Shown here: positions 286 through 25,819 of the stretch, one piece after another | How positions within the stretch are numbered: position 1 is the first letter of the stretch | Layout of the letters: the number at the start of each line of letters is the position of its first letter | Virus record (IMG/VR): IMGVR_UViG_3300025769_000374 | Span: 1 to 35,708 of that record | DNA: 35,708 nucleotides | From: a virus | Reading direction: 5' to 3' (one strand) | Program-made: the position numbers and the translations under genes | Notes under the pieces: model-generated | Databases searched by the model: none | The model's input: only the letters and a program-made list of their open reading frames with translations | Told to the model about the DNA's origin: nothing

Positions 286-2487
286 TTACTCCGTAAATTC
301 GTGAATCATGTCCAAATCAAAATGTTCGTTGATAAACCGCAGCATCTTTTCAACGTCAATCTTCAGCACCTTGCCGGTCGGCGTGTGCTTGGAACGGAAT
401 ATCCACTCGTTTGTTTCGCTGTCGTGAGGCGATAGCAGGGTTGCGTTACCGGCTGCGTCCATGACGTTTGCCTCACCGCTTGATGAATAGAACGAAACGC
501 CGTTTGCCAGAGTGCCGACGGGTGCGGTGCCGTCAAACAGTACAAGTTGAGCGGTGCCTGCTGTCGTTGCGCGGTCTGCCGTGCCGCCGATTTTTAAGTT
601 GTTGGCGACGTAATTTTCGGCTGTACCGTTGCAGAACAGGTTCCAGCGATTAGCGCCAGAGGCGATGTTAGAGTAGAAACCGTAGTTGTTGGTGCCGTTG
701 TTAAAAGAACTGTGAACATAAAACCCATACCGATTCGTAACGGTTGAGCCAGCGCCGATTGAACCTTGAATGGCAAAAAAGTGTTGGACTTCATTAACAG
801 TAAATGAAGCAGCTTCAGTATCGAAACTTGAATAATAACCTCTGGCTGCATTCGTAATGCTTGATGGAATTGTTGGGTCCACAACACTACCAAAACTGTT
901 TGTGTTACCACTTAAAACCGGCATGGTGCCGCTTATATTAAATTTTTGATTGTCAGCCGCCGTCCCGCCGATCCCGACGTTGCCGGACGTTACAACCTGC
1001 CCCACCGTGATCGCATCGGCATCTTGGAAAGCCATCGTACCGAGATACTGATTCAGCGGAACTTCGTTCGGGGCGGTGCCAATGTCGGTTTGAGAAACAA
1101 TGTTTGAGCCGTTTTCAAGGAACTGAACGCCATAAACATCTTTGAACTGCAACGCCGACGTACCCAAGTCACGCGCATTGTCGGTGCTGGGGACAAGGTC
1201 GGTGTTGAATCGACCGTTGGCAGTGATGGTGTCAGAGGTCGCATCACCAAGCGTGACGTTGCCTGTTGCGGATAGCGTGGTGAATGCGCCAGTGTTCGGT
1301 GTTGTAGCGCCGACCGTGCCATTGATGTTAATTGATGCAGTGCCGGTCGCATTGGTCACTACCAGCGCAGAAGGCGTGCCAAGGTTTGGCGTGACCAGGG
1401 TCGGGCTGTTGGCAAGCACGTTACTGCCCGTGCCGGTGTTCGTAACACTAACGATATTCTTTGACGCATCCAACGCCAACGCGGTGCTGGCCGTCAGGTT
1501 CGATAGCGTCGTAACGCCCGTCACCCCAAGCGTGCCACCCACAGTGACATTGCTGCTAAACGAGCCAGTGCTACCCGCAACCGTGCCACCGGAAATGCTT
1601 CCTGTGACGTTACCCGTCAAGTTGCCGGTGACGTTGCCACTGACTCCACCCGATGCGGTAATCGCACCAGTCACGCCCAAAGTAGACGACAGCGTCGTGG
1701 CACCTGTTACCCCCAGCGTGCCGCCGACTGTGACGTTTGATGAGAAAGTGCCTGTCGTACCGGCAACCGTGCCGCCTGAAATGTTACCCGTGACATTGCC
1801 CGTCAAATTGCCGGTGACGTTGCCAGATACGCCCCCCGACGCAGTCAGTACGCCCGTGACGCCCAGCGTGCCGCCAATAACACCATCGCCTGCCAAGTAC
1901 AAATTGCGCGGGCGAGTCGCGCCGGACGCGCCAATGTCGTAGGTGTTGTCAGTGAAAAGCAGGTTCGACGTAATGGTCGAGTTGATCGTCAGCGTGTCGG
2001 CTGAAGAATCGCCTACCGTGACGTTGCCGTTTAGCGTCAAGCCGCCCGTCAAAGTCAGCGTGCCGCCTACAGACAGGTTGCCCGTCACCGACGCACTGGC
2101 AAGCGTCGCTGCGCCTGACGTCGTAAGCGTCGTTGCCGTAATGCCACCGTTTGCCGTCAACGTTTTGCCCGTTGGCACCAACACACCAGTCGCCGTGTAC
2201 TGCAATATTTGCGCACCACCAACAACGCCCCACATCTCGCCAGAGCCTTCGCGGTAAAAACCTGTGCTTGGCTCATTGAGCCACGCAATACCAGGCGACG
2301 CCTGCAAGCCGTCGGCAAGTCGGAACGGCGCGAGCATACCGCCCTCGCCCGACCGCGACAGCGAGTCGGTCAATTCATTGGCGATGTCGTTGAGCGTCGT
2401 GTTCGCCCAGTTCGCTTCAATGAGCGTGCCGGAGACAACAGGGTTGCCTGACGGAAGGGTGTATGTACCAGATGCGTTACGGGGCAT
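286..2487 (-). CDS. Tail fibre / receptor-binding protein, repeat-rich shaft
   Basis: This 733-residue protein starts MPRNASGTYTLPSGNPVVSG, an N-terminal signature common to podovirus tail fibres that probably anchors them to the tail. Residues about 100-400 are a Gly/Thr/Val/Asn-rich beta shaft (GNVTGNLTGNVTG, TLGVTG) with two long near-identical copies at residues 206-262 and 268-324. Residues about 520-690 are less repetitive and may form the receptor-binding part. The last 45 residues (NEWIFRSKHTPTGKVLKID) form a helical end of a kind seen in phage fibres. I see no Ser-Lys peptidase S74 chaperone motif. It is the last large virion gene before the DUF7936-like gene. Start ATG at 2487; the preceding gene stops 9 bases upstream. 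Confidence 0.85.
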   Translation of the reverse strand: MPRNASGTYTLPSGNPVVSGTLIEANWANTTLNDIANELTDSLSRSGEGGMLAPFRLADGLQASPGIAWLNEPSTGFYREGSGEMWGVVGGAQILQYTATGVLVPTGKTLTANGGITATTLTTSGAATLASASVTGNLSVGGTLTLTGGLTLNGNVTVGDSSADTLTINSTITSNLLFTDNTYDIGASGATRPRNLYLAGDGVIGGTLGVTGVLTASGGVSGNVTGNLTGNVTGNISGGTVAGTTGTFSSNVTVGGTLGVTGATTLSSTLGVTGAITASGGVSGNVTGNLTGNVTGSISGGTVAGSTGSFSSNVTVGGTLGVTGVTTLSNLTASTALALDASKNIVSVTNTGTGSNVLANSPTLVTPNLGTPSALVVTNATGTASININGTVGATTPNTGAFTTLSATGNVTLGDATSDTITANGRFNTDLVPSTDNARDLGTSALQFKDVYGVQFLENGSNIVSQTDIGTAPNEVPLNQYLGTMAFQDADAITVGQVVTSGNVGIGGTAADNQKFNISGTMPVLSGNTNSFGSVVDPTIPSSITNAARGYYSSFDTEAASFTVNEVQHFFAIQGSIGAGSTVTNRYGFYVHSSFNNGTNNYGFYSNIASGANRWNLFCNGTAENYVANNLKIGGTADRATTAGTAQLVLFDGTAPVGTLANGVSFYSSSGEANVMDAAGNATLLSPHDSETNEWIFRSKHTPTGKVLKIDVEKMLRFINEHFDLDMIHEFTE
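1516..1872 (-). repeat. Two tandem 171-bp shaft repeats within the tail fibre gene
   Basis: Copies at 1702-1872 and 1516-1686 are offset by 186 bp and encode residues 206-262 and 268-324. Both read TLGVTG, TASGGVSGNVTGNLTGNVTG, ISGGTVAG, FSSNVTVGG, TLGVTG with only a few substitutions. The DNA copies differ at many silent positions, so the protein repeat is under selection rather than being a very recent duplication. Unequal recombination here could change shaft length. Confidence 0.85.
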
Positions 2488-5785: not shown

Positions 5786-7417
5786 TTAGCCTCCAAACCC
5801 AAACAGCCCAGGCGCACCAATCGCTGCGCTACCTAATCCAAACAACCCGCCCATCAAGTTCGCGCCGCCTGCTTGTTGTGCATTGTAAGCGCCTAGTGCC
5901 GCATCGTATCCCATCTGCGTCGCGTTCAGAATCTGCGGCGTCTCTGCTCGCCCTGACGCGTTAAACGTCGGCATCTGCGGCATTCCGACCTGCTGGCCAG
6001 AAAGCAATGCGTTCATTTCGTTCAGCGACATGCCGCGACGTTGCATCTGTTCGGCAATTGCCTGCTGACGCAACTGGTTCATTTGGTTGGCGTACTGCTG
6101 GTTCAAACCAAACTGCTGTGCAGCGGCTTGGTTCTGAGCCTGCATACGCTGCAAGTCCAACGCCGACGCCTGCCCTAATGCCTGATTGCCAAACTGCGCA
6201 GCGGCCAAGTTTTGCGCAAACTGCTGCTGGCCCGCTTGGTTAGCTAAGTTCGCCTGCCCCATCATCTGCTGATAAAGCTGATTTTGGGCTTGGTTCCCAA
6301 ACTGTCCTGCGCCTAATGCCTGTGCATACGCCTGCTGAGTGGCTTCGTTGCCAAACTGGCCAGCGGCAAGCTGTTGACCAAACTGCTGCTGCAAGGCTTG
6401 GTTCTGCGCCTGCCGCGCTGCCATGTCTTGCTGGAAAGCTTGGTTAAGGGCTTGGTTCTGGAACTGGTTTGCTGCCAAGCCCTGCTGGAACGCTTGGTTC
6501 GCCGCTTGGTTTGCAAACTGCCCGCCTGTGACGTCCTCTTGGAACGCTTGCTGACGCTGACCCATCTGCATTCCGTACAGACGCTGTGCTTCGTTGCCAG
6601 CAATGTCCAAGGCGTTAAACCGTTCTGCCGCCTGTCTCTGAGCTAAATCATCTAATGCACGCTGGTAGCCTTCGGTGCCAACTTGAAAACCCTGATTGCT
6701 TAACTGCGTCTCAAGCTGCTGCCGTGCATAGTCCTGCTGCGGCTGCATACGCGCCATCAAGTCGCTGGCAATGCGGTCACGGTAGGAAGCATCAAACGCG
6801 GGTAGCGCGGGGTTATCGACAACGTTCAGGCCACGCTGCACGGCTTCTTGACCAGTCTGACCAGCGAGGCCACCCGTCATCGACGTAAAGCCGGTGTTTA
6901 CACCTGTCGGCGCTACACCACGCTGAATATCGCCTGTCATGCTTTCGACGCCCATCTGCGGGCCGCCAAAGTTAAAACCACCAACAAAGTTTGTGCGGCC
7001 AACATCTGTTTGCAGCCCTGGCACATAATCTGCCGTCGCAGTTTGCAATTGTGCGGGCGTGCCGGCAGACGTTAAAGCTGGCAGGTTTTGCCAATCAAAC
7101 GGTTGGCCGTACTCATTGGCTACACGACCCATAAAGCCTGACGCTAAATCGCTACGGCCTTGCTGAAGGCCAAGCTGTGATTCCAGTGCATTTTGTAGCT
7201 CTGGCGCAAGCGTCGTGTTTTGCGTCCACTGCGTAACCAGATCGCCTGTCGCAGGATCGCGAACTGCTTGGGTGTCCCAAGTGGTTGAGCCAAACGGCGT
7301 GTTTTGCACAGGCCGGTTGGCAAAGTTCTGCATGTTGAGGGCTTCTTTGGACAGTTCCCCCTGTAGCTGTGCTGCGCCGACATAGTCTGGCGGTGCAGGT
7401 GCTTTACCCTTACTCAT
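5786..7417 (-). CDS. Gln/Asn/Ala-rich virion protein with 18-residue repeats
   Basis: 543 residues. The N-terminus (MSKGKAPAPPDYVGAAQ) and the following NTPFGSTTW beta segment are typical of a podovirus structural protein usually annotated as hypothetical or tail protein. Residues 210-280 form a charged helix (QDYARQQLETQLSNQGF). Residues 282-443 are nine consecutive 18-residue units with consensus Q-F-x-N-Q-A-x-x-Q-x-F-x-Q-x-L-A-A-x and no spacers. Eighteen residues are five alpha-helical turns, so each unit presents the same face. The C-terminus is Gly/Ala-rich and hydrophobic (LMGGLFGLGSAAIGAPGLFGFGG), possibly membrane active. Position after the GNAT-like gene suggests an analogue of T7 gp14 that enters the host envelope; this is inference. 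Start overlaps the upstream stop as ATGA. Confidence 0.7.
   Translation of the reverse strand: MSKGKAPAPPDYVGAAQLQGELSKEALNMQNFANRPVQNTPFGSTTWDTQAVRDPATGDLVTQWTQNTTLAPELQNALESQLGLQQGRSDLASGFMGRVANEYGQPFDWQNLPALTSAGTPAQLQTATADYVPGLQTDVGRTNFVGGFNFGGPQMGVESMTGDIQRGVAPTGVNTGFTSMTGGLAGQTGQEAVQRGLNVVDNPALPAFDASYRDRIASDLMARMQPQQDYARQQLETQLSNQGFQVGTEGYQRALDDLAQRQAAERFNALDIAGNEAQRLYGMQMGQRQQAFQEDVTGGQFANQAANQAFQQGLAANQFQNQALNQAFQQDMAARQAQNQALQQQFGQQLAAGQFGNEATQQAYAQALGAGQFGNQAQNQLYQQMMGQANLANQAGQQQFAQNLAAAQFGNQALGQASALDLQRMQAQNQAAAQQFGLNQQYANQMNQLRQQAIAEQMQRRGMSLNEMNALLSGQQVGMPQMPTFNASGRAETPQILNATQMGYDAALGAYNAQQAGGANLMGGLFGLGSAAIGAPGLFGFGG
6089..6574 (-). repeat. Nine in-phase 54-bp repeats encoding 18-residue helical units
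   Basis: Residues 282-443 of the 543-residue protein divide into nine units of exactly 18 residues, for example QFANQAANQAFQQGLAAN and QFQNQALNQAFQQDMAAR. The first unit is the most divergent. Positions 1, 4, 5, 6, 9, 11, 13 and 15 are the most conserved. Codons differ between units, so conservation is at the protein level. Confidence 0.85.
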
Positions 7418-7827
7418 TGCAACGTCTCCTTTGCAAGATACCGGCAGTCCTCACGTCGCATTTCTAGCAACACGCAGTCAACCGTCTCTGCTATTTGCTT
7501 AAAGCCTATTTTTTTGTTAAACCGAATTGCCTTGTCAAAATCCTTTGGCGTCAAACCGTAAATTGCTTTCACGCCAATAGACTCAAACGGGTATTCAAAC
7601 GCCGCCTTCAACAACTTCTTCGTCAAGGAATGCGGCGTGTCGAAAGCAACGTGCATAAAACAACTTTCGGGAGTCCATGAGCCAAACGCCACAGCGGCTG
7701 CAATTTCGCCGTTGTCGCGGATAGCCGCAATCGTCCGCAAGTCCGTCGACCAGGGAATCTGAGTTTGTTGACTCATCCATTGCCATATCACAGGCGGCTC
7801 ATTAGGTTTGTCAGTTACGAGCTTCAT
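7414..7827 (-). CDS. GNAT-fold acetyltransferase-like virion-region protein (T7 gp13 position)
   Basis: 137 residues. The order of elements fits a compact GNAT fold: TIAAIRDNGEIAAAVAFGSW (beta2-beta3), CFMHVAFD (beta4), a helix LTKKLLKAAFEYPFESIG, KAIYGLT (beta5), a helix KDFDKAIRFNKKIGFKQIAE ('N-kk-iGF' motif), then DCVLLEMRRED (beta7). GNAT-like proteins are known at this place in podovirus tail operons, including the gp13 position of T7-like phages. It lacks a clear RxxGxG acetyl-CoA loop, so it may be structural rather than catalytic. It is linked by ATGA overlaps to both neighbours. Confidence 0.7.
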   Translation of the reverse strand: MKLVTDKPNEPPVIWQWMSQQTQIPWSTDLRTIAAIRDNGEIAAAVAFGSWTPESCFMHVAFDTPHSLTKKLLKAAFEYPFESIGVKAIYGLTPKDFDKAIRFNKKIGFKQIAETVDCVLLEMRREDCRYLAKETLQ

Positions 7828-10589
7828 GCCAGCATCCGCCTATTACCTTTGACCGGCCTCATCACTTGTCTTTCTTCGGCTGCTCGAGTTTGAGCTTCTA
7901 ATTGCGCCAGCATTGCTAGTTCTGCTTCTAACGCAGCCTGCTCTGCGGCACGCTGTTCAGCTGCGCGTCTTGCTGACTCTTGGCGCGCAAGCTCAGCCTG
8001 CCGTTGCGCTTCAGCTTGGCGCTGGGCTTCGGCTTGTTGCTGCGCTTGAAGTTGAGCTTGGCGTTGAGCTTCTGCCTGTCTTTCACGCTCTGCTGCTTGC
8101 CGCGCTGCTTCTTGCTGACGCGAAATTTCTGCCTGTCTTTGACGTTCTGCTTCCGCTCGGCGTTGCGCTTCTAGCTGTGCTTGACGCTGTGCCTCTAGTT
8201 GAGCTTGACGTTGTGCTTCCGCTTGCCTAGCTAATTCTTCCTGGCGAGCTATTTCTGCTTGACGTTGACGCTCGACTTCAGCTTGACGCCGTGCTTCAGC
8301 TTGTCGTTGCCTTTCAAGCTCAGCTTGCCGCTGCAATTCAGCTTGTCTTTGACGTTCTTGTTCTTGTCGAGCTACTTGCTCTTGTCGTGCAATTTCCGCC
8401 TGACGTTGACGCTCCGCTTCAGCGCGACGTTGAGCCTCTGCTAATTGAGCTTGTCTAGCGGCTTCTTGTTGACGAGCGATTTCAGCTTGACGTTGCGCTT
8501 CCAATTGCGCTTGCCGCTGACGCTCTGCCTCTGCTTTACGCGCTTCTTCTGCTCTACGCGCCTCCTCTGCGCGGCGAGCTTGCTCTGCTTGTCTTGCTTC
8601 TTGTTCACGCATTGCGCGTTCAATTTGTTCACGCAAAGCTAGTTCTTCCGCACGTCTTTGAGCTTCTTCTCTTGCCCGCTGTTCGCGTGCTAAGCGTTCT
8701 TGCTCAGCTTGCCTTGCCGCTTGTTCGCGTGCGCGTTGTTCGTTAGCAAGACGCTCTTGTTCTGCCCGACGCGCTGCTTCTTCACGGGCAATACGCTCCT
8801 GCTCAACGCGGCGGGCTTCTTCGGCCTGACGCGCCTCTTCTGCACGACGAGCTTCCTCTGCTAACCGTGCTTCCTCTGCCCTTTTAGCTTCTTCAACAAG
8901 ACGCGCTTGCTCAGCTTTTTGCGCTTCTTCGGCAACGCGTGCCGCTTCTGCCGCTTGCGCTTCTTGCGCAGCCAGCGCTTGATCAATCTGATCGCGCAAA
9001 GTTAATTCACCTGATGGCTGTGTGATGGTTGCGGCATCACTGGGCATTGCGACGTTTCCGCCAACCGATGACAAGTCTGGCCCCCCCACAAAACCCGTAT
9101 CGCCAAAACCTGCGCTGCCGCCTGCATTTAGACCAATAAACGGGTTTGTAAACGGATTGTTTGGCCCGTCAATGGGACTAATAACTTCAGAGCCTGGATC
9201 AAATGTACCGCCAGCCGTCGGATCGAAATTTTCGGTAACGGTTGTACCTAAGTCATTGCCATAGTCCACAAGAGGATTAGTCGACTCAGGCACGCCTGTG
9301 TCATCTAATTCTTCAACTGTTACTTCACCAACAGGCTCAGTCCAATCGCCAATAAACTCATCTAATATTGGATCAGGCGGCTGAAAATCGACTGGCCCTG
9401 GAACAACAAAATCTGGCTCTTCGACAACCGGCTGTTCAATAACTGGTTCGTCAACTAGTTCCTCAATAACAATTTCAACCTCTGGCTCAGGTTCTGTCTC
9501 TGAGGCAGGGGGTAATTCTGGCTCTGGCTCTGGAACCGGAACGTCAACAAAAATGTCGTCTTCTGGCGCAACCGGCTCAATAGTAATCACGCTGTCCAGT
9601 TCTTCTGGCTCAGGCTCCGGTTCGGGTTCTGGCTCAACTTCTGGTTCCGGCTCTGGCGGAAGCGGCGGCGGTGGTTCTTCTACAAAAATATCGTCACCAG
9701 GATTAACTGGTTCAATGGTAATTACGCTTTCAGGTTCCTTATCAGGCTCCGGTTCCAGTGTTGGGGGCAACGGCTCAGGAGGGGAAGATGGAGGAATAGG
9801 ATTGTCTACAAAAATATCATCGCCAGGATTTACTGGTTCAATGGTAATAATTCCTTCCGGCTCATTTGGCTCCGGTTTAGGCTTTGGAAGCGGCACTGGT
9901 AATGGTTCAGGCGGTGGCAATGGAACAGGTTCGTCCACAAAAATATCGTCACCAGGGTTGACCGGCTCAATAGTAATTATGCCTTCTGCTGGCGGCTCTT
10001 CGGGCTGAGGAGCGGGAGGAGGCGGTGGTGGAGGCGGCGGGAATACTGGCTCAGGCTCTTCTGCCCAAATATCGTCACCAGGCTCTACAGGCTCAATAAT
10101 GATTATGCCTTCTGAATCATCTGGCTCCGGTTCAGGGGCTGGCGGTAGCGGTACAGGAGTGTCTGCCCAGATGTCATCTCTAGGAGTGACTGGTTCAATC
10201 GTAATAACACCTTCTGGTTCATCTGGTTCAGGTTTAGCAGGCGGTGGTTCTGGAAGCGGTGGTTGTGGCGGTGTTTCACCTCCATCTGGATTTTGCGGTT
10301 TTGGCTTATCGCGTTCTGTCGACGGCGGAACGTCTACAGGAGGCGGAGGAGGATCAGGTGGGGGCTGATCATTTGATCCGCTACCGCTAGGCGGAGTGGG
10401 CGAAAGCGGAAACGGCAATTCAAAACGCTGCGGGTTAAGTAATGCTGCGCGCCGCGCTGCATAATTTAACTCGTTTGGACTTTTCATCCAATCAAACATT
10501 AACGGGCTAACACCGCTTCCCATGCGAGGGCCTTGCGGAGCATCGCCCCGCAATGACGCAATCATGGCGCTTCGGTAGCCTTCTGCCAT
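7824..10589 (-). CDS. 921-residue Pro-rich, acidic-motif-repeat and coiled-coil virion-region protein
   Basis: No known family recognised. Residues 1-60 are ordinary sequence (MFDWMKSPNELNYAARRAAL). Residues 60-125 are Pro-rich. Residues 126-353 hold six copies of a motif close to EGIITIEPVNPGDDIFVDEP, separated by Pro/Glu linkers at 34-45 residue spacing. Residues 370-530 are acidic then Gly/Pro-rich. Residues about 530-905 are an uninterrupted Ala/Glu/Gln/Arg helix (EEARRAEEARQAEEARR, RQRQAELQRQAELERQ), TolA-like in composition. The tail VMRPVKGNRRMLA is basic. The start ATG shares a base with the nozzle gene stop (TAATG) and the stop overlaps the GNAT-like gene as ATGA, so it is translated with the virion genes. 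A role as an elongated internal or tail-spanning component is inference. Confidence 0.75.
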   Translation of the reverse strand: MAEGYRSAMIASLRGDAPQGPRMGSGVSPLMFDWMKSPNELNYAARRAALLNPQRFELPFPLSPTPPSGSGSNDQPPPDPPPPPVDVPPSTERDKPKPQNPDGGETPPQPPLPEPPPAKPEPDEPEGVITIEPVTPRDDIWADTPVPLPPAPEPEPDDSEGIIIIEPVEPGDDIWAEEPEPVFPPPPPPPPPAPQPEEPPAEGIITIEPVNPGDDIFVDEPVPLPPPEPLPVPLPKPKPEPNEPEGIITIEPVNPGDDIFVDNPIPPSSPPEPLPPTLEPEPDKEPESVITIEPVNPGDDIFVEEPPPPLPPEPEPEVEPEPEPEPEPEELDSVITIEPVAPEDDIFVDVPVPEPEPELPPASETEPEPEVEIVIEELVDEPVIEQPVVEEPDFVVPGPVDFQPPDPILDEFIGDWTEPVGEVTVEELDDTGVPESTNPLVDYGNDLGTTVTENFDPTAGGTFDPGSEVISPIDGPNNPFTNPFIGLNAGGSAGFGDTGFVGGPDLSSVGGNVAMPSDAATITQPSGELTLRDQIDQALAAQEAQAAEAARVAEEAQKAEQARLVEEAKRAEEARLAEEARRAEEARQAEEARRVEQERIAREEAARRAEQERLANEQRAREQAARQAEQERLAREQRAREEAQRRAEELALREQIERAMREQEARQAEQARRAEEARRAEEARKAEAERQRQAQLEAQRQAEIARQQEAARQAQLAEAQRRAEAERQRQAEIARQEQVARQEQERQRQAELQRQAELERQRQAEARRQAEVERQRQAEIARQEELARQAEAQRQAQLEAQRQAQLEAQRRAEAERQRQAEISRQQEAARQAAERERQAEAQRQAQLQAQQQAEAQRQAEAQRQAELARQESARRAAEQRAAEQAALEAELAMLAQLEAQTRAAEERQVMRPVKGNRRMLA
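7875..9002 (-). repeat. Long Ala/Glu/Gln/Arg coiled-coil repeat region
   Basis: Residues about 530-905 of the 921-residue protein are short imperfect repeats of the type AEEARRA and RQRQAEL. No Pro or Gly interrupts the stretch, so it can form a single helix or coiled coil. At 0.15 nm per residue a continuous helix would be about 55 nm. On the DNA this appears as a 1.1-kb run rich in gcttgacg and gcttctg words on the plus strand. Confidence 0.8.
9531..10214 (-). repeat. Six spaced copies of an acidic 22-residue motif
   Basis: Within the 921-residue protein the motif (E/D)(G/S)(I/V)I-x-IEPV-x-P-x-DDI(W/F)-x-(D/E)-x-P occurs at residues 126, 160, 202, 245, 287 and 332. The first two copies have DDIW and the last four DDIF. 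A degenerate seventh trace (EIVIEELVDEP) begins near residue 372. The flanking linkers vary in length and composition, so the motif itself is the conserved part. Confidence 0.85.
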
Positions 10590-12175
10590 TACACCACTCC
10601 GCCCAGCTCAGTCATCATGTGCGACGAGGTAAAGATCGTTCCCGACAAGCCACGCACACGCATACGCAGCGAGCCGTAGTAGCCCAATCCCGTCGTCCCA
10701 ATCCATGCCTGGTAGCTGTTATTAGTTCCTACCCAACGCGCCACGTTCCAGTTACTTTCGTTCCAGAGCGAGTCGAGCGTTTCTGCAAACGACGGCGAGC
10801 CTGCCGTGTTGCTAAAAGTGAACTGCGTGTTGACCTGCACTTTTACCGACGGTGCAACAGGGGCGATAAAAATTGGACGCGCCAGGCCAAACTTCTTTAA
10901 CTGCGCAGGCGTGCCAAACGCGTTAAAGGCGGTTTGCATATCGCCTTCAATTGCATCGCCACCACTACCATCTGTTTCAACACCGTCTGATGCTCCAAAA
11001 AGCCCGCGAGCAACGCGGCCATCTTCGGTGCCAAAGTAAAGCTGCCCGTTGAGCAACGCACAGCACGCCATAGGCACGCCAGAAAACGTACACCACGCGC
11101 CTGTGTTCACGTTCATCGCGAACTGCTGATACACGCCTAAGTTTTCCGGCAGCTTGATTACCAGCACGTCGCTATCTGCAACGACGAAAACGTCCCATGA
11201 TTTTTCGTCTTTAAGCTGCGACACTAATGGCCCCAGTACTGACTGAATCTTTTGCGATGGCCCTGGTTGGATTTCACTGAACTGACCGTTGACCAGACGC
11301 GACACAGGCACCAAGCCCAGCGTCGACACGATCATCACGTCGCCGCCATAGCCTGTGAAGAAACGCCCGTAAGTCGGCACTGGCCCGACGTACCACACGC
11401 CCTGCAATGCAAACGAGTTGGCATTAGAAGGGTCTGTGCCTCGCCATACGCCGACGTCGCCTTGCGAGCCGACCACAACCAAGTGATCATCGACACCAAT
11501 ACCGGCATCGAGCGTCCAGTTAATTAAGCCGCGTACATAACCGCCGTTACGCAATAGCGAACCCATCTCAAACGACGTGGCTGTGCCGGCTATGGCGTCA
11601 ACGGTGTCGAGATACCAAACCTTTGAGCTTTCTTTTTCCGTGAACCATACGCGACGCTTCCACACCGCTACCGACGTCAAATCTGTCGGCAAATTAGTTG
11701 GCGTCTGCTGCACCCACCCGTTTGTTGTGTCGTAAGTCCAGTATCCGGCGCCAGGTGATACCGCCAACAAAAACATGTCGGCGTTGGTTGAAAACTGCGT
11801 AACCGACCACTGATCGTCCGTAGAGGACGTCCCTGTCACAACCTGCACAGGCGTTGAACCCGTCACGTCGTAAATGTTGCCGCCCGCTGCGGCAAAGATT
11901 TTGTTGTCGGCAGGATCAGGCGCGTTAAACGTAAAGATCGATTTAATGGGCAGCGACACCGTCGATGACGTGTACTTCCAGCCCTTGCGTAACTGCACAC
12001 CCGTTTGCGTCGGGATAAAGTTATCTAGTACCAACGCGTCGTTGGGCGACATGTTGCTGATTGGGTCGCGATAATTCAGGCCGCCCACAGGGGCAGGCAA
12101 AATAAAGGGTTGCGCTACCCTTGCCGCAGCCGACACTCTCGGCTGCTTAAATTGTCTGACAGAAACGAGCGGCAT
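10589..12175 (-). CDS. Tail nozzle / stabilisation protein (T7 gp12- or P22 gp10-like beta-propeller)
   Basis: 528 residues. The N-terminal half begins with LPAPVGGLNYRDPISNMSPNDALVLDNFIPTQ, the usual opening of podovirus nozzle proteins ('gl(n)-r-d-..-m...A..ldN..P'). It then repeats short beta strands with aromatic residues and Gly turns (IFAAAGGNIYDVTG, VVVGSQGDVGVWRG, LYFGTEDGRVARG), consistent with a beta-propeller. The C-terminal part is beta-rich (SVKVQVNTQFTF, GSLRMRVRGLSG). It would seal the tail tube below the adaptor. It lies directly after the adaptor gene and before the unusual 921-residue gene, with stop/start overlaps on both sides. Confidence 0.8.
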   Translation of the reverse strand: MPLVSVRQFKQPRVSAAARVAQPFILPAPVGGLNYRDPISNMSPNDALVLDNFIPTQTGVQLRKGWKYTSSTVSLPIKSIFTFNAPDPADNKIFAAAGGNIYDVTGSTPVQVVTGTSSTDDQWSVTQFSTNADMFLLAVSPGAGYWTYDTTNGWVQQTPTNLPTDLTSVAVWKRRVWFTEKESSKVWYLDTVDAIAGTATSFEMGSLLRNGGYVRGLINWTLDAGIGVDDHLVVVGSQGDVGVWRGTDPSNANSFALQGVWYVGPVPTYGRFFTGYGGDVMIVSTLGLVPVSRLVNGQFSEIQPGPSQKIQSVLGPLVSQLKDEKSWDVFVVADSDVLVIKLPENLGVYQQFAMNVNTGAWCTFSGVPMACCALLNGQLYFGTEDGRVARGLFGASDGVETDGSGGDAIEGDMQTAFNAFGTPAQLKKFGLARPIFIAPVAPSVKVQVNTQFTFSNTAGSPSFAETLDSLWNESNWNVARWVGTNNSYQAWIGTTGLGYYGSLRMRVRGLSGTIFTSSHMMTELGGVV

Positions 12176-12924
12176 TACGAGCCGTATCCCGTATCAGGGG
12201 TGTTAGTCAACGGCTGGATGTACGGGAAACGATTCATACGCACCATCGACAGCACGTTCGCTCCCTTTTCATTGCCCTTTCGGTTTTCGTAGTTGACTTG
12301 GAAGTCACGCATAGCGGACGACGAATCCAAGCCTTTAATTTCCAGCCATTTGACGCGAGCTAACAGCGTCGTCAAGTACGAATCCAAAAGGATGACGTCG
12401 CCGTTTTTGGTCGCGCGATTCTTGTACAGCGACGAGTTATCCTGGTCGCGCACCCAGGCGACCGACTGGTAATAAAACGTCAGAGTCTGGGCGGACGTGG
12501 GTGGCGACAGGATGTAAAGCTTGTTGTCGCGAACTTGCCAATAAAACGACAAGGTGGGCAGCGTCTGACGGATCAGCAACTGCTGCCACATTTGCGGACT
12601 GACCGGCCCAATCGCCGGCCACTGCATCGTGCTATTCCACTGCGTTTGATCAAGGAACGAATAAAAGTCCTCGGGCAAGTCAAACGCCTTTTCGCTTTGC
12701 CCAGGCGAATCCGCAACGATGCTAATGGAATGCGTCTTCGTCAGTTCTTGCCAGTCTGCAATCGACAACAAATCAATGCCGGCCAGATTGACCGACTGCA
12801 CCATCTGCTGGACAGCAGGATCGGTGTCACCTGCCGGATCGGCAGGGGTAGGAAAGCCCACCAGAGCAGCGACATTTTGGACGATTGCGGATAACGTCGA
12901 ATCGTCAATGATCTGGTAGGCCAT
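12175..12924 (-). CDS. Head-to-tail adaptor protein (T7 gp11 / P22 gp4-like)
   Basis: 249 residues with the layout of podovirus adaptor ('phage adaptor' or tail tubular A) proteins: N-terminal helices (TLSAIVQNVAALVG, AVQQMVQSVNLAGIDLL), the segment ADWQELTKTHSISI, FDLPEDFYSFLDQT, then LTFYYQSVAWVRD and a final helical region DSYLTTLLARVKWLEIKG. In this family the protein forms a dodecameric ring under the portal. The start at 12924 follows the preceding gene by 8 bases, and its stop is fused to the next ATG (TAATG). Confidence 0.8.
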   Translation of the reverse strand: MAYQIIDDSTLSAIVQNVAALVGFPTPADPAGDTDPAVQQMVQSVNLAGIDLLSIADWQELTKTHSISIVADSPGQSEKAFDLPEDFYSFLDQTQWNSTMQWPAIGPVSPQMWQQLLIRQTLPTLSFYWQVRDNKLYILSPPTSAQTLTFYYQSVAWVRDQDNSSLYKNRATKNGDVILLDSYLTTLLARVKWLEIKGLDSSSAMRDFQVNYENRKGNEKGANVLSMVRMNRFPYIQPLTNTPDTGYGS

Positions 12925-15192: not shown

Positions 15193-15777
15193 TTACTCCA
15201 TGAAACGGTTGCCCTTACGGGCGTTTTCTTCCGCCGAAAGCAACTGCAAGTTGTTTTCGACGTGAAGGCCACACACATTCGTCCCTTGCAGCGGAACTAT
15301 GTGGTCAACCGTCATGTTCATACGCCGCGCTTCGGCGTAGATGGCATTGATGACCTGTTTGTCAGCCCAAGTGGGGCATTGTTGTTTGACAACAAAGCCT
15401 CTTAGGATATTTCGCTGCCTTATCTTGTCGTAATGCCTGCGATACTTTTTGCGTTCATACCAGCGAAAGCGTTCTGGATCTTTACGTCGGGCTTCTTGAA
15501 GCCAGAGCTTTTTGCGTTCCCGTACTTCGGGATGGCGCTGTCTTTCTCTGGCTTTAGCATTAAACGCCTCTCTATTGCGCTGACGATAGGTTGCGCTGTA
15601 GACGCGTTGCTTTGTTAAAAACCGTCTGTCCTTTTCCTCACGCTTCCTGCGGGCATACTGGCGCACACGTTCACGCGAGCATTCCACACAAGTCCATGAC
15701 CGAGAAAACCGCAGCCCTTCTAGTTCAGGATGTTTTTCACACACCTTTCCTTTGTAAAGTCGTGGTTTTCTCGCCAC
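15193..15777 (-). CDS. HNH homing-type endonuclease between scaffold and capsid genes
   Basis: 194 residues. The C-terminal HNH core reads VDHIVPLQG (Asp158-His159), then VENNLQLLSAEENARKGN, with the Asn and His/Asn positions and the final KGN expected for this nuclease family. The N-terminus has a zinc-knuckle-like set C13, H16, C30, C33. Residues 35-125 are a very basic Arg/Lys/Tyr/Glu helix that would contact DNA. The only start in this position is GTG at 15777 without a good Shine-Dalgarno, which implies weak translation. It interrupts the usual scaffold-capsid gene pair and probably targets a phage capsid-region sequence lacking it. Confidence 0.85.
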   Translation of the reverse strand: MARKPRLYKGKVCEKHPELEGLRFSRSWTCVECSRERVRQYARRKREEKDRRFLTKQRVYSATYRQRNREAFNAKARERQRHPEVRERKKLWLQEARRKDPERFRWYERKKYRRHYDKIRQRNILRGFVVKQQCPTWADKQVINAIYAEARRMNMTVDHIVPLQGTNVCGLHVENNLQLLSAEENARKGNRFME

Positions 15778-22159: not shown

Positions 22160-22167
22160 ACACTAAG

Positions 22168-22195
22168 ACTATCCGCATTGTGGATACAAACGCAA
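22168..22195 (-). promoter_or_regulatory. Weak leftward promoter candidate for the late block
   Basis: On the minus strand TTGCGT (22195-22190), a 16-base spacer and GATAGT (22173-22168). The -35 overlaps the inverted repeat at 22191-22204. The transcript would begin only a few bases before ATG 22159, which is a reason for caution or for the later TerS start at 22117. Confidence 0.3.
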
Positions 22196-22204
22196 CCCGT
22201 TGCG
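22191..22204. promoter_or_regulatory. Inverted repeat CGCAAC-CC-GTTGCG, operator candidate
   Basis: Perfect 6-bp arms with a 2-base spacer lie in the 114-base divergent region between TerS and the first rightward gene, upstream of the promoter at 22213 and overlapping the leftward -35. The half-site GTTGCG recurs at the other two rightward promoters. Confidence 0.5.
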
Positions 22205-22212
22205 CTTTTCTC

Positions 22213-22240
22213 TTTACATACGCAAACGCTTGCCTATACT
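22213..22240 (+). promoter_or_regulatory. Rightward sigma70-like promoter P1
   Basis: TTTACA (22213-22218), 16-base spacer, TATACT (22235-22240), 33 bases before the start codon at 22274. The spacer contains ACGCAAACGCTTG. The same CGCTTG shortly before the -10 also occurs in P2, suggesting related promoters. It would drive the three genes up to the terminator at 22969. Confidence 0.65.
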
Positions 22241-22273
22241 AGCCACACCAACCACGCAAACGAGGTAACAACG

Positions 22274-22525
22274 ATGTTTGACTATGCAGACTTTGAACGC
22301 CACGCGAAAAAATACGAGCATTACAAGACCGCACGAATTCGCGGTCATGTATTTACGGAAAACGGCGAGCATGACTTAGAAGCCGGTCAGTTTGTCGCCG
22401 TTCGTCACATTCGCAACGCATGGAACGGTTTAACGCGCCGTGTTGAGCCGGTCTACAGCATCACCGCAAACGGTAGCGTTTGGGGCGTCATGTATGCGTC
22501 CAACCTTTCTGACTTTGTTTTATAA
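22274..22525 (+). CDS. Small early protein, hypothetical (83 residues)
   Basis: The product begins MFDYADFERHAKKYEHYKTA and contains a compact beta-rich part (ARIRGHVFTENGEHDLEAGQ, VYSITANGSVWGVMYASN). The ATG at 22274 has a GAGG Shine-Dalgarno eight bases upstream; an upstream in-frame ATG at 22178 lies before the promoter and is rejected. First gene after P1, so probably an early host-takeover protein. No family recognised. Confidence 0.75.
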   Translation: MFDYADFERHAKKYEHYKTARIRGHVFTENGEHDLEAGQFVAVRHIRNAWNGLTRRVEPVYSITANGSVWGVMYASNLSDFVL

Positions 22526-22545
22526 CCACGCAAACGGAGACAACC

Positions 22546-22788
22546 ATGCAAACGTTCACGAATAATGAAACCAACATGCAGTCAGAAGTCACGTTCGTCC
22601 CCTTGCCACTGCGCCATAAATCCGGCAACGCTTACCGCGTCACGCTGCACGATCTGGACTCTGGCGAGATTGTCCCTGTGGTGCGTTACTTCCCAACACT
22701 GGAGGCAGCAGCGGACTACGCGGAACGAATTGCAATGGGTATCAGTGAACCCAACGCGGTTGTGTCGGTTCCCGTGTGGAATTCGTAA
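22546..22788 (+). CDS. Small early protein, hypothetical (80 residues)
   Basis: MQTFTNNETNMQSEVTFVPL, then a segment NAYRVTLHDLDSGEIVPVVR and a helix LEAAADYAERIAMGISEPNA. The alternation of strand and helix suggests a small alpha/beta domain. A GGAG Shine-Dalgarno in the leader ACGCAAACGGAGACAACC is nearly identical to that of the 23426 gene. Function unknown. Confidence 0.75.
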   Translation: MQTFTNNETNMQSEVTFVPLPLRHKSGNAYRVTLHDLDSGEIVPVVRYFPTLEAAADYAERIAMGISEPNAVVSVPVWNS

Positions 22789-22789
22789 C

Positions 22790-22945
22790 ATGAACGCCCC
22801 CCGCCTTAGCACTATCTTGATGTGCCTCGGGTATCCGATACTGCTCGCCGTCTTCTTCGTCGATCAACCAACCCAACCCGCACTCGCCGCACTCGGCGGG
22901 CTGATTGCATTCGCCGCCGCAGTCACGAACTATTGCGGCGACTGA
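22790..22945 (+). CDS. Small membrane protein (51 residues, two TM segments)
   Basis: ATG at 22790, one base after the previous stop, TGA at 22943-22945. The product MNAPRLSTILMCLGYPILLA continues AVFFVDQ, then a second hydrophobic segment ALAALGGLIAFAAAVTNYCG. Two membrane spans joined by a short polar loop are clear. It is the last gene before a strong terminator. Function unknown; a small membrane effector is one possibility. Confidence 0.7.
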   Translation: MNAPRLSTILMCLGYPILLAVFFVDQPTQPALAALGGLIAFAAAVTNYCGD

Positions 22946-22968
22946 CCGCCCCTCAAAAGGGCGACACT

Positions 22969-23000
22969 GAGGGCGGCCATGTGCCGCCCTCTTTCTTTTC
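22969..23000 (+). terminator. Intrinsic terminator of the first early operon
   Basis: A perfect 9-bp stem GAGGGCGGC (22969-22977) and GCCGCCCTC (22983-22991) with a 5-base loop is followed by TTTCTTTTC. It closes the 22274-22945 operon and separates it from the repeat-rich region. Confidence 0.9.
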
Positions 23001-23340
23001 TGCCTAACTAACCGTCACAAATAACGTCCGTCACAGCGCCGTCGCACACAGGGGTACTACGTACCCCCTGTGACGCCTTGCGACGCTTGGTGCAACTTTT
23101 TGCGACGCTTTGCGACGCTTTGCGACGCTTGAACGAAAACACTAACCATAACAGACGCTTACACGCGCCAGAGCGTCACACGTTTTTTGTCACGCCTTGC
23201 GACATTTGTTGCAAAGCGTCACAAAACGCCTTGCGACGCCCCCCCCTATTTTCGCCAAAGATTGCGACGTTTAGAACTTTTGTGCAGACCCCCAAAATGA
23301 CCGCATCGTGGCCAGGCTTGCGATCAATTTAGACCGCAAT
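23001..23340. other. Gene-free iteron-like region, replication origin candidate
   Basis: No credible gene lies between 22946 and 23425. TTGCGACGC occurs at 23078, 23100, 23110, 23120 and 23231, with variants at 23197 (TTGCGACAT) and 23262 (TTGCGACGT); the three at 23100-23128 are spaced exactly 10 bases. A second word, (C/G)CGTCACA, occurs at 23012, 23028, 23173 and 23216, and reversed at 23069. A bulged palindrome (CACAGGGGTAC/GTACCCCCTGTG, about 23047-23072) lies at the left. Clustered iterons with helical phasing next to a hairpin are typical of origins or multi-site regulators. The short ORF here is repeat-derived. Confidence 0.6.
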
Positions 23341-23350
23341 CCGTTTGCGC

Positions 23351-23378
23351 TTGACTACTCAACCGCTTGTGCTATTTT
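23351..23378 (+). promoter_or_regulatory. Rightward sigma70-like promoter P2
   Basis: TTGACT (23351-23356), 16-base spacer, TATTTT (23373-23378), 47 bases before the start at 23426. It shares CGCTTG before the -10 and a CCGTT(T)GCGCTT upstream word with P1. It would drive the cluster of small overlapping genes up to 26202. Confidence 0.7.
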
Positions 23379-23386
23379 CTCCTCAT

Positions 23387-23407
23387 GCGTTGCGATTGTC
23401 GCAACGC
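23387..23407. promoter_or_regulatory. Perfect inverted repeat in the P2 leader, operator or hairpin
   Basis: GCGTTGCGA (23387-23395) and TCGCAACGC (23399-23407) form 9-bp arms with a 3-base centre, placed between the -10 of P2 and the Shine-Dalgarno of the 23426 gene. The core TTGCGA/TCGCAA is the same word as in the iterons to its left, so the same protein may bind both. Confidence 0.7.
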
Positions 23408-23425
23408 CCTAACGGAGACAAAACG

Positions 23426-23890
23426 ATGCAAACGCAAACTCTGACTCTTCATTGGTCAACTTCACGTGGCCGAGATACTTACGGCTACAACATCCGGCGC
23501 ATTACAGATATCACCACCGGCAAGCATTACCGCACATGCGGCGGCGGTTATGACATGACCGGATCGGTATTTGGTGAGTGGCTAAACGATGTGTATGCAG
23601 ACCGATTGCAAGCCATTGGCCACCGCGCCGCAGCGTATTACTCAAAGGCTGGCGGTTATAAAACGCACACCGACGCCAACGGCTACCGGCTGCGCGGCTA
23701 CATCTACGGCATGACCCGTAACGATGACACGGGCCGTGTGACGCTGGACGGCGCTTGCGGAATGTCATGCATGGAGGACATCGCGCAGGAAATTGGCTTG
23801 ACCCTCAAGCGCGTCACTGACCGCAAGGGCAACACGATTGCTTTTATTGTTACGGATAACGGCGCACCTGTTGTACAGGAGGCCGCATGA
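23426..23890 (+). CDS. Early protein, hypothetical (154 residues)
   Basis: MQTQTLTLHWSTSRGRDTYG opens a beta-rich domain (YNIRRITDITTGKHYRTCGG) followed by helix FGEWLNDVYADRLQAIGHRA, a Tyr/Gly-rich part and a C-terminal alpha/beta region (EDIAQEIGLTLKRVTDRKGN, TIAFIVTDNG). No catalytic motif is evident. ATG 23426 has a GGAG Shine-Dalgarno; the in-frame ATG at 23345 lies upstream of the promoter and is rejected. The stop overlaps the next ATG (ATGA). Confidence 0.75.
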   Translation: MQTQTLTLHWSTSRGRDTYGYNIRRITDITTGKHYRTCGGGYDMTGSVFGEWLNDVYADRLQAIGHRAAAYYSKAGGYKTHTDANGYRLRGYIYGMTRNDDTGRVTLDGACGMSCMEDIAQEIGLTLKRVTDRKGNTIAFIVTDNGAPVVQEAA

Positions 23891-24057
23891 ATACTTACCG
23901 CAACCTTTTCCAGCAAATGGAGCAGCACGTCGCGGAACTTATGGCGCAAGGTTGGACGCGCCACGACGCCGAAAACGAAGCGTATGACCTGTTTATCGGT
24001 GCTGATGAACGGCACCCAGAGCGATACGAAAGCCCGCAAGAGGTGAGCGATGATTGA
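23887..24057 (+). CDS. Small helical early protein (56 residues)
   Basis: ATG at 23887 overlaps the preceding stop as ATGA; TGA at 24055-24057. The product MNTYRNLFQQMEQHVAELMA is an amphipathic helix followed by QGWTRHDAENEAYDLFIGAD. It overlaps the next gene by 8 bases. Function unknown; the tight coupling on both sides supports translation. Confidence 0.7.
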   Translation: MNTYRNLFQQMEQHVAELMAQGWTRHDAENEAYDLFIGADERHPERYESPQEVSDD

Positions 24058-24313
24058 CACCGAAAGCCCCGCCGGATCGTGGCGGCGGGAAATTTTGAAT
24101 AGCCCCGCGACGACGACGCAATTGCGCGAAGTGATCAGCGAGCTTGAACACTGCTTGAAGGTGAGCCGCCGTGACTTTGATGAATTACGGGCGGCGAACT
24201 TGCACCTAGTCAAGCGTCTAGCGGAAGCCGTAGCGCGTGAGATGGAGCAACGGGCAATGGTCGCCAAATTGGAAAAAGAGTTAGAGGCATGGAGCGTTCG
24301 CAAGACGGGATAA
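24050..24313 (+). CDS. Coiled-coil early protein (87 residues)
   Basis: Starts MIDTESPAGSWRREIL and continues with a long helix LREVISELEHCLKVSRRDFD, ELRAANLHLVKRLAEAVARE, ending KLEKELEAWSVRKTG. Nearly the whole protein is heptad-like. It starts inside the previous gene's final codons. Function unknown. Confidence 0.7.
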   Translation: MIDTESPAGSWRREILNSPATTTQLREVISELEHCLKVSRRDFDELRAANLHLVKRLAEAVAREMEQRAMVAKLEKELEAWSVRKTG

Positions 24314-24373
24314 ACGTGGGCGGCATTCTCCCCTTGCCCACACGTTGAGGCAGTCAACGCAGAGCTAGCGGCG

Positions 24374-24401
24374 TGTCGGGCGTCGTACTGCCCCCCCGAC
24401 A
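24374..24401. other. Inverted repeat in the 105-base gap before the 24419 gene
   Basis: TGTCGGG (24374-24380) and CCCGACA (24395-24401) form a 7-bp stem with a 14-base loop. The following TCTTTACGAGG contains the Shine-Dalgarno of the next gene. An earlier GTGGGC/GCCCAC pair lies around 24319-24345. Without a T tract these are more likely translation or RNA-processing signals than terminators. Confidence 0.4.
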
Positions 24402-24418
24402 TCTTTACGAGGTCAAAC

Positions 24419-24583
24419 ATGGAATACACACAAGACCGGCTAAGGTCGGAAATCCGCCGCCTTGAAGCTGAAAACGAAGCGCACAAAAGCGTCGAACGTG
24501 AGCGGGTGTGGACTGAAGCCGCGCTGTTTCTGATCGGCTTTGCGGTCGGCACGTTCCTCGGCTATCACTGGGGGGCGTGGTGA
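24419..24583 (+). CDS. Small coiled-coil plus membrane-anchor protein (54 residues)
   Basis: ATG at 24419 with an ACGAGG Shine-Dalgarno; TGA at 24581. The first 30 residues form a charged helix (MEYTQDRLRSEIRRLEAENE), followed by one membrane span (AALFLIGFAVGTFLGYHW). This is a C-tail-anchored or type III layout. Function unknown. Stop and next start share the A (TGATG). Confidence 0.7.
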   Translation: MEYTQDRLRSEIRRLEAENEAHKSVERERVWTEAALFLIGFAVGTFLGYHWGAW

Positions 24584-24813
24584 TGACCCGCGACGATATT
24601 CGGCGCATGGCGCGAGAAGCAATTAAAACTCAACATTTTCACGGCTACCAACACTCATGGACTTTTCTTGATTCGGGGCTTGAATACTTCGCCGCTCTTA
24701 TTGCCGCAGCCGAGCGGGAGGCGTGTGCTTTGGTGGCTGAATCTTATGAGCCAACCTGTGAGTCCTGCCCGAGTGGTGTGGCTAATGCGATCCGTGGGAG
24801 GAAAGCGTCATGA
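24583..24813 (+). CDS. Common small phage protein of unknown function (76 residues)
   Basis: MTRDDIRRMAREAIKTQHFH, then LEYFAALIAAAEREACALVA and CESCPSGVANAIRGRKAS. The order 'MtredI.rMareA ... erFaalvAaAERea...v ... c..aIRaR' is very frequent in phages of Proteobacteria but has no known function. The start ATG at 24583 is preferred over GTG 24577 because it is fused to the preceding stop. It overlaps the next gene as ATGA. Confidence 0.8.
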   Translation: MTRDDIRRMAREAIKTQHFHGYQHSWTFLDSGLEYFAALIAAAEREACALVAESYEPTCESCPSGVANAIRGRKAS

Positions 24814-25007
24814 CCGACGAACTGCACTTTGGCGCAACCCATGACAAAACAAAGCTCGCCGTTTTGCGCGAAGCCGTAGAGCGTGCTGACCACCTGGCGG
24901 CCACGCAGACGCGTTTGATCGAATCGCAAGACGCCTTGATTGCCACGCTTCAAGCGCGAATCAGGACGCTAGAAAGTGAGTTATCTGAGGTGAGGTGTGC
25001 GCTATGA
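24810..25007 (+). CDS. Small coiled-coil early protein (65 residues)
   Basis: MTDELHFGATHDKTKLAVLR leads into a helix VERADHLAATQTRLIESQDA and LQARIRTLESELSEVRCAL. Strong heptad character suggests a dimeric coil. ATGA overlaps at both ends place it firmly in the translated chain. No family recognised. Confidence 0.7.
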   Translation: MTDELHFGATHDKTKLAVLREAVERADHLAATQTRLIESQDALIATLQARIRTLESELSEVRCAL

Positions 25008-25222
25008 CTGACGGCATCCGTTTTGACCCCTGCCCGCATTGTCTGGGCAAGTTCTGGATCGACGATGGTTTTGGCGATTGGATCAAGTGTTCGGTATGCA
25101 ATGGAGCAGATAGACAACATGAACGAAATACTCGAAGCCGCATTCGGCTGGTGTATAGCAATGACCGCCCTGTGGTTAAGCTGGAAAATTATGACGGCCC
25201 TGATTTGCCGCCCGCCGCTTAA
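25004..25222 (+). CDS. Small zinc-ribbon-like protein (72 residues)
   Basis: MTDGIRFDPCPHCLGKFWID is followed by DWIKCSVCNGADRQ. Two CxxC knuckles 17 residues apart make a rubredoxin-knuckle zinc ribbon. The C-terminal half (RNTRSRIRLVYSNDRPVVKL) overlaps another frame that may also be coding. The ATG at 25004 is fused to the preceding stop. Role unknown, possibly a regulator. Confidence 0.65.
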   Translation: MTDGIRFDPCPHCLGKFWIDDGFGDWIKCSVCNGADRQHERNTRSRIRLVYSNDRPVVKLENYDGPDLPPAA

Positions 25223-25271
25223 CCTGCCGCCCCCGTCTGAGGACGCCAAACGAGGCACAGGAAATTGGTGA
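25119..25271 (+). CDS. Overlapping small membrane protein candidate (50 residues)
   Basis: In another frame from the zinc-ribbon gene, ATG at 25119 opens MNEILEAAFGWCIAMTALWL and continues SWKIMTALICRPP with a polar tail. One clear membrane span is present. A GGAG lies 11 bases upstream, and the stop at 25271 overlaps the GTG of the next gene as GTGA, exactly like the other junctions in this cluster. That makes it plausible despite a 104-base overlap. Confidence 0.5.
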   Translation: MNEILEAAFGWCIAMTALWLSWKIMTALICRPPLNLPPPSEDAKRGTGNW

Positions 25272-25819
25272 GGGTAGAACTCACTGCACAAGAGGTGCAG
25301 ATTGCAGCACTGGCGGCGGTATTACGAACCGGCGCAGCCCTGACGAACGCACTACAGCACCGATATGGGTACGACGGCGCGAATGGCTGGCAAGTTGAGA
25401 TAGAGTCTAGTTGCGCCGAGCTTGCCGTCTGTAAGGCTCTAGGAGTCTATTGGAGCGGTTTAGCGGGGCCAGGGGCTAGGGATGTGACGGGGTGCGAAGT
25501 GCGGCACACAGAACTCGACCACGGGCGTTTGATTCTGCATCCGTCCGATCCCGACGATGTGCCGTTCGTATTGGTCACGGGGCGACGCGGTGACTACGAA
25601 CTGCGCGGCTGGATTTTCGGAATAGATGGCAAAAAAGACATGTATTGGGATGACCCGACACGCAAAGGGCGTCCCGCTTTTTTTGTGCCACAAGCTGATT
25701 TAAATAAATGGGAATTAAGTGATGACGATAGACGACGAAGTGATACGCAAAGTGATGAGCGAAATGGGCAAGAAGGGCGGCAAGACGACAGGCAAAAGCA
25801 AGCGCCGTGGGGGGCGTGA
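25268..25819 (+). CDS. Phage early protein, hypothetical (183 residues, GTG start)
   Basis: The product begins VRVELTAQEVQIAALAAVLR and contains ESSCAELAVCKALGVYWSGL, CEVRHTELDHGRLILHPSDP, VPFVLVTGRRGDYELRGWIF and GRPAFFVPQADLNKW. This mixed alpha/beta layout is common in phages of Proteobacteria and resembles restriction-endonuclease-like folds (EVR...L in a strand), but no motif is complete enough to name. The last 33 residues are Asp/Arg/Gln-rich and lie in the region also coding for the next gene. GTG 25268 is chosen for its GTGA overlap; TTG 25265 is an alternative. Confidence 0.7.
   Translation: MRVELTAQEVQIAALAAVLRTGAALTNALQHRYGYDGANGWQVEIESSCAELAVCKALGVYWSGLAGPGARDVTGCEVRHTELDHGRLILHPSDPDDVPFVLVTGRRGDYELRGWIFGIDGKKDMYWDDPTRKGRPAFFVPQADLNKWELSDDDRRRSDTQSDERNGQEGRQDDRQKQAPWGA

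Follow-up and report, generated by a model that had tools for sequence, protein, structure and literature searches.

The viral DNA examined here, all 35,708 nucleotides of IMG/VR record IMGVR_UViG_3300025769_000374 (positions 1 to 35,708; hereafter the window), carries an intact open reading frame encoding 921 residues on the minus strand, between the gene for the tail nozzle and a GNAT-like gene. We call it the slot gene, and its counterparts in related loci likewise follow the nozzle gene directly. A preliminary description of the window had noticed six acidic motifs and a long helix in its product and had placed it between these two neighbors, a placement borne out by the predicted fold of the nozzle and by a match of the GNAT-like gene to phrog_4470. 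The slot protein begins with a short conserved peptide, the anchor, which holds together a family of otherwise largely unalignable proteins, and the remainder, here termed the cargo, is exchanged among related phages.

Parts of the slot protein

The slot gene starts at an ATG that shares one base with the nozzle stop codon (GTGTAATGG) and overlaps the GNAT-like gene by 4 bases, in agreement with the coupling on both sides proposed earlier. Ten other structural-module genes have a third-position GC of 0.53-0.73, and the slot gene 0.31-0.37; in 48 of 50 loci this value is lower in the slot gene than in the nozzle gene. The gene and its parts are as follows.

7824-10589, minus strand: slot gene, 921 residues; in order, anchor, acidic repeat region, linker and long charged helix
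10434-10589, minus strand: anchor region, residues 1-52, with the core YRSAMIASLRG at residues 5-15 (10545-10577) and FDWM at residues 32-35 (10485-10496)
9465-10409, minus strand: Pro/Glu-rich region, residues 61-375; 34% Pro, net charge -71, holding the six motifs
10149-10214, minus strand: motif copy 1, EGVITIEPVTPRDDIWADTPVP
10047-10112, minus strand: motif copy 2, EGIIIIEPVEPGDDIWAEEPEP
9921-9986, minus strand: motif copy 3, EGIITIEPVNPGDDIFVDEPVP
9792-9857, minus strand: motif copy 4, EGIITIEPVNPGDDIFVDNPIP
9666-9731, minus strand: motif copy 5, ESVITIEPVNPGDDIFVEEPPP
9531-9596, minus strand: motif copy 6, DSVITIEPVAPEDDIFVDVPVP
9447-9479, minus strand: degenerate motif copy 7, VEIVIEELVDE, residues 371-381 (IVIEEL)
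9294-9329, minus strand: degenerate motif copy 8, GEVTVEELDDTG, residues 421-432 (VTVEEL), matching in form the TVEEL repeats in loci L029 and L030
7857-9008, minus strand: Ala/Glu/Gln/Arg helix free of Pro and Gly, residues 528-911 (384 residues), from sequence and AlphaFold2

The cores of the six motifs (IEPV.P.DDI[FW]) are found at residues 131, 165, 207, 250, 292 and 337, spaced 34, 42, 43, 42 and 45 residues apart on Pro/Glu-rich linkers, just as had been reported; the two degenerate copies had been overlooked. None of 20,000 shuffled versions of the region contained the core, which excludes a chance origin of the six motifs. Compared over 15 codons, the copies have a mean proportion of synonymous differences (pS) of 0.67, near saturation, and of nonsynonymous differences (pN) of 0.14, indicating that they are old and have been kept by selection. 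Copies 3 and 4 differ by nine synonymous and no nonsynonymous changes over these codons. The same values rule out recent slippage or duplication of DNA as the source of the motifs, and only short repeat arrays were found at the DNA level across the whole slot gene. A search of IMG/VR for EPVNPGDDIF as a DNA pattern matched only an already known close relative, L012. The element conserved across the family is not this motif but the anchor, of about 45 residues, which had gone unnoticed. The pattern DDI[FW]/DDLW was considered as a universal slot motif and rejected: it is enriched (58 occurrences, compared with about 4 in shuffles), yet is present in just 17 of 58 non-redundant proteins. To the eye, VITVEEL and IITIEPV loosely resemble TonB boxes, a likeness that we take to be a lead only.

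The long helix is dominated by four residues (27% Ala, 21% Glu, 20% Gln and 19% Arg over residues 529-905). Oppositely charged pairs number 95 at i+3 and 52 at i+4, as against 6 and 1 pairs of the same charge, and the periodicity of Leu, Ile, Val and Met never rises above the limit set by shuffling, with no peak at 3.5 or 7 residues. The absence of this hydrophobic periodicity rules out a coiled coil, and together with the charge spacing it fits a charged single alpha helix better than a coiled coil built on heptads. By sequence the helix has the salt-bridge spacing expected of the charged single-helix class. AlphaFold2, run without an alignment, predicted helices at residues 531-678 and 709-906, with a predicted local distance difference test score (pLDDT) of ~70-84 that falls to ~55-60 at the break, and gave pLDDT below 50 across nearly all of residues 1-525. 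The helix is therefore unbroken, as first described, in the sense that its 384 residues lack Pro and Gly, and is interrupted between residues 678 and 709 in the predicted fold. No comparable helix occurs in the 82 further slot proteins that were complete and usable, whose longest Pro/Gly-free stretch is 120 residues. Because of this, the suggestion that the helix spans a capsid or the periplasm does not hold as a general function and could apply at most to the phage of the window. Among solved structures, the only chain matched by the helix was Klebicin C (7ng8, E 0.002), the match falling in low-complexity sequence. As a long Ala/Glu/Arg/Gln helix without heptads it resembles domain II of TolA, charged single alpha helices and the rods of colicins and klebicins; unlike TolA and these bacteriocins, the slot protein was found to contain no Tol/TonB or bacteriocin domain.

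The view that no described family has this architecture has held up. The window slot protein has no match in Pfam, and thus none to DUF4214 (PF13946), has one weak match in PHROGs, falling on the helix, and has none among 50,697 phage records. A literature search returned nothing on the family.

Anchor conservation, cargo exchange and distribution

Two profile scans of IMG/VR recovered 115 loci with an anchored slot gene, some of them redundant and all from metagenome assemblies. The anchor is present in all slot proteins as [Y]xSxLIx[AS]LRG followed by NPG...N..N or F.WM, and beyond it the proteins are largely unalignable. The window anchor is detected (independent E-value 8e-7) even by a profile from which the window's clade was left out, and profiles built from random halves of the anchors recover 20-22 of 22 held-out sequences. 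Each slot protein has one copy, which begins anywhere from residue 5 to residue 424. No anchor was found in other open reading frames of the loci or in the whole records of two phages without a slot gene, and no solved chain matched it (best E 0.85).

The cargo changes abruptly at the borders of the gene. Loci L018 and L019, whose nozzle proteins are 98.7% identical, are 96.4% identical in DNA as far as the opening bases of the slot gene, do not match inside it, and are 84% identical from its stop codon onward. The nozzles of L184, L186 and L188 are 81% identical to that of L181, but their slot proteins match the one in L181 at 92-94% identity; compared with its sisters by nozzle (97-98%), the slot protein of L181 shows 19-26% identity. 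The breakpoints lie 12 bases into the gene and ~3 bases past its stop. The window and L009 (nozzle 94%) retain ~70 bases of the slot gene in common and then have no match up to the GNAT-like gene. L009 retains this gene and those following it, at 84.5% DNA identity across 2,060 bases, while the motifs and helix are absent and replaced. The preliminary description had suggested that the motifs may be docking sites for a multi-copy partner, such as internal proteins or the Gln-rich neighbor, and had named loss of the repeats without effect on the neighbors as evidence to the contrary; L009 presents this situation. Since sister phages keep the neighbors without the motifs, a constant motif partner is contradicted, and four phages of the clade lack a slot gene altogether.

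Cargo is also resized, as in L029 and L030, whose slot proteins (386 and 412 residues) differ by one in-frame TVEEL unit. Other repeat types are VDPVVDPEDP, TDDVTD, PDYTDDLWP and PDDFVGP. DUF4214 scores above the Pfam gathering cut-off in L019, L043, L062 and L068, and L018 has a dockerin-like repeat with a Ca-binding loop that falls below the cut-off; modules of both kinds are typical of extracellular proteins. The usable proteins range from 171 to 921 residues. All usable complete slot proteins carry a net negative charge, the exception being L066, a wrong-frame artefact of 48 residues, and the 30,395 residues include two Cys, both in the doubtful C-terminus of L132. The cargo is mostly predicted to be disordered, as judged by composition in the relatives and from a structure model in the window protein alone. 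Allele pN/pS ratios of 0.13-0.51 (11 informative pairs) indicate purifying selection, which is weaker than that on the nozzle in every pair except one. The cargo modules of four slot proteins were not found in 50,697 isolate phages, nor were cargo modules found in other genes of the loci. At the level of sequence, these comparisons show the slot gene to be an exchangeable cassette in which cargo is swapped as an entire gene or resized in frame.

In contrast to its content, the position of the gene is fixed. It starts at the nozzle stop codon in 50 of 50 inspected loci; the start is an ATG within an overlapping TGATG or TAATG in 48 of them, and a GTG overlapping TGA in L029 and L030. Where a GNAT-like gene lies downstream, 97 of 98 slot genes reach it, the exception being a tandem pair. 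This pair (L158:2167-3758) comprises two slot genes with different cargo and one anchor peptide each. In L074 (3636-4334) and L075, which are more distant (nozzle 36%), an unrelated anchor-less gene of 233 residues occupies the slot position. Loci L036 and L045 belong to one record of 42,838 bases (IMGVR_UViG_3300043444_000155), with two nozzle-slot modules near opposite ends, either a chimeric assembly or two joined phages.

In a tree of 145 distinct nozzle sequences (quick search, support by the Shimodaira-Hasegawa-like approximate likelihood ratio test, some outgroup branches long), a single clade of 97 with 100% support contains all 93 carriers of the slot gene and four non-carriers (L038, L055, L065 and L162); the 48 sequences outside it all lack an anchored slot gene. 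This distribution is most simply explained by a single gain of the slot gene followed by four losses. In nearly all distant relatives outside the clade the position is empty, in line with the earlier remark that T7-like phages have no such protein there: in Mx8, BUCT555, ctMlz233, EBPR podovirus 2, RHph_Y25 and pCB2047-C the GNAT-like gene directly follows that of the nozzle. No isolate-phage nozzle exceeds ~33% identity to that of the window, so the clade is known here from metagenomes only. A nozzle search of GTDB genomes for prophages found distant relatives alone (25-31% identity, mostly Rhizobiales), with no anchored slot genes.

Possible function of the slot protein

We put at about even the chance that the window gene is this phage's version of an exchangeable tail-operon cassette, whose product would be an accessory component of the virion attached to the tail through its anchor, in an uncultivated clade of Mx8-related podoviruses. 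The anchor is probably the virion-docking part of the protein. The gene position, the coupling to the nozzle gene and the confinement to a single nozzle clade point to docking on the tail, where the likeliest site would be the nozzle or the tail channel. T7 gp7.3 and P22 gp26, both of which bind the tail by a short segment, are precedents for it. The acidic cargo would then be exposed at the tail tip, or be the first to leave it, and its repeated motifs may bind, at the start of infection, a putative host-envelope or other host factor that differs by host. In the window, the cargo would offer eight strand-like motifs of the form [IV][TIV][IV]E[EP][LV], six of them followed by PxDDI[FW], and the charged single helix (up to ~56 nm) would hold the motif region away from a second site. 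Several observations weigh against tail docking. An anchor as far in as residue 424, with ~400 residues before it, is a poor fit to a peptide buried in a channel; the four losses mean that some backgrounds can do without the gene; no link of a cargo module to a receptor or host factor was found; and the N-terminus of T7 gp7.3 is mostly positive, whereas slot cargoes are acidic.

The wider idea, that the clade keeps a dedicated tail-docking peptide and recombines unrelated disordered motif-repeat polypeptides onto it as a cargo system of the tail machine, we regard as less likely than not. Phage host-contact modules are usually sought among folded fibers and spikes. If true, the cargo system would be a fast-evolving class of host-contact factors distinct from fibers, spikes and needles. 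The fast-changing gene of this structural module encodes a mostly disordered protein, in a family that is held together by one short peptide and escapes Pfam, PHROGs and isolate collections. If on the virion, it would provide a defined test of the part played by a disordered repeat-motif protein in infection by short-tailed phages, with a docking peptide to locate. Tail fibers and tailspikes also combine a conserved virion-binding end with a swapped receptor-binding end, and the slot family resembles them in its constant attachment part and horizontally exchanged remainder. It differs in that no fiber, spike or trimeric fold is predicted, the chain being mostly disordered with short linear motif repeats.

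That the slot protein is a tail needle or plug like P22 gp26 or SU10 gp18 seems improbable, even though SU10, with its nozzle (gp17), needle (gp18) and ejection proteins (gp20-24), has the needle gene in the same place, immediately downstream of the nozzle gene and ahead of those for ejection (PMC9509320), and the window nozzle is by fold of the short P22 gp10 type. P22-type needles keep an N-terminal virion-binding segment, vary in shaft length, and have exchangeable, dispensable tips (PMC3741392); the needles of P22, Sf6, HS1 and SU10 are like slot proteins in having a conserved binding segment, a variable length and an exchangeable distal part. Needles, however, are trimeric heptad coiled coils, and that of P22 plugs the tail, whereas slot proteins have no heptads, are mostly disordered, often carry the anchor internally and, outside the window, have no helix of similar length. 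The slot gene is absent outside the clade and was apparently lost four times within it, while P22 particles that lack this plug are unstable and do not retain their DNA (PMC3741392). T7 gp7.3 lies at the junction of adaptor and nozzle, has residues 1-83 unresolved, and is ejected; like gp6.7, it recalls the slot proteins as a small virion protein with a short ordered junction segment and a long unresolved remainder (PMC11784390). However, gp7.3 is a short protein whose N-terminus is mostly positive and whose gene lies elsewhere, in contrast to the acidic, hypervariable slot proteins of 171-921 residues, and no basic DNA-facing disordered part of its kind was found in the slot cargoes. By the tests made, slot proteins are homologous to neither needles nor gp7.3, and no sequence similarity to needles was detected. 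Because the heptad test failed and the cargo charge is opposite to that of the gp7.3 N-terminus, we place the family with neither.

An internal head protein, ejected with the core proteins, is a somewhat unlikely alternative to tail docking; the anchor would then signal packaging or core binding, and the cargo would act in the periplasm or cytoplasm. T7 gp6.7 and gp7.3 are small ejected virion proteins (PMC11784390), the slot gene lies shortly before the presumed ejection-protein genes, and disordered chains free of Cys would pass a channel easily. It is harder to reconcile with an anchor that goes with one nozzle clade, with downstream neighbors that stay constant while the cargo swaps, and with DUF4214 and dockerin-like cargo (the latter below the Pfam cut-off) of kinds typical outside the cell. 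We give little credence to a non-virion host-takeover or anti-defense protein encoded in the late operon. As is typical of an accessory gene, the slot gene is present in some phages and missing in others, turns over fast and is exchanged horizontally, and the low third-position GC (48 of 50 loci) suggests an origin differing from that of the neighbors, but the invariant position, the start-stop coupling to the nozzle gene and the retention of one peptide across unrelated cargoes argue for a fixed partner from the same operon. The low complexity, range of lengths and several losses might also describe a functionless, drifting disordered spacer. This explanation, already disfavored, is hardly credible given the motif pS and pN, the allele pN/pS, the 97 of 98 frames intact to the GNAT-like gene, and an anchor conserved despite replacement of the surrounding DNA.

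Neighboring genes and phage affiliation

The structural operon of the window is related by sequence to those of Myxococcus phage Mx8 and Stenotrophomonas phage BUCT555, whose major capsid proteins are respectively 61% and 70% identical to its own. The genes around the slot gene are listed below.

12175-12924, minus strand: tail adaptor gene (Pfam SU10_adaptor, 30.6 bits; cut-off 27)
10589-12175, minus strand: tail nozzle gene, directly upstream of the slot gene (AlphaFold2 model, pLDDT 85.7; Foldseek)
7414-7827, minus strand: GNAT-like gene, directly downstream of the slot gene (phrog_4470, E 1e-24; Pfam Acetyltransf_1 below cut-off)
5786-7417, minus strand: Gln-rich virion structural protein, 18% Gln (phrog_6121, E 6e-38)

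Foldseek matched the nozzle model to the nozzles of Pa223, VP1, P22 (gp10), SU10 (gp17) and T7 (gp12). PHROGs labels the nozzle family, phrog_5107, as 'amidase / lysis', and the label has been copied into phage annotations; since the model matches known nozzle folds, it is probably wrong. The family, a tail nozzle by predicted fold, includes Mx8 p52 (L001) and a protein of pCB2047-C (L007).

Elsewhere in the window, ~4 kb at 22160-26160 separates the early and late gene blocks and has no convincing long gene on either strand. At 286-2487 (minus strand) lies a gene for a tail-fiber-like protein with long internal repeats (SGNVTGNLTGNVTG..GGTVAG, VGGTLGVTG). An HNH-endonuclease-like open reading frame (VDHIVPL...N..QLL, recognized by eye) is found at 15193-15777 (minus strand), between a reading frame of 364 residues and the major capsid gene.

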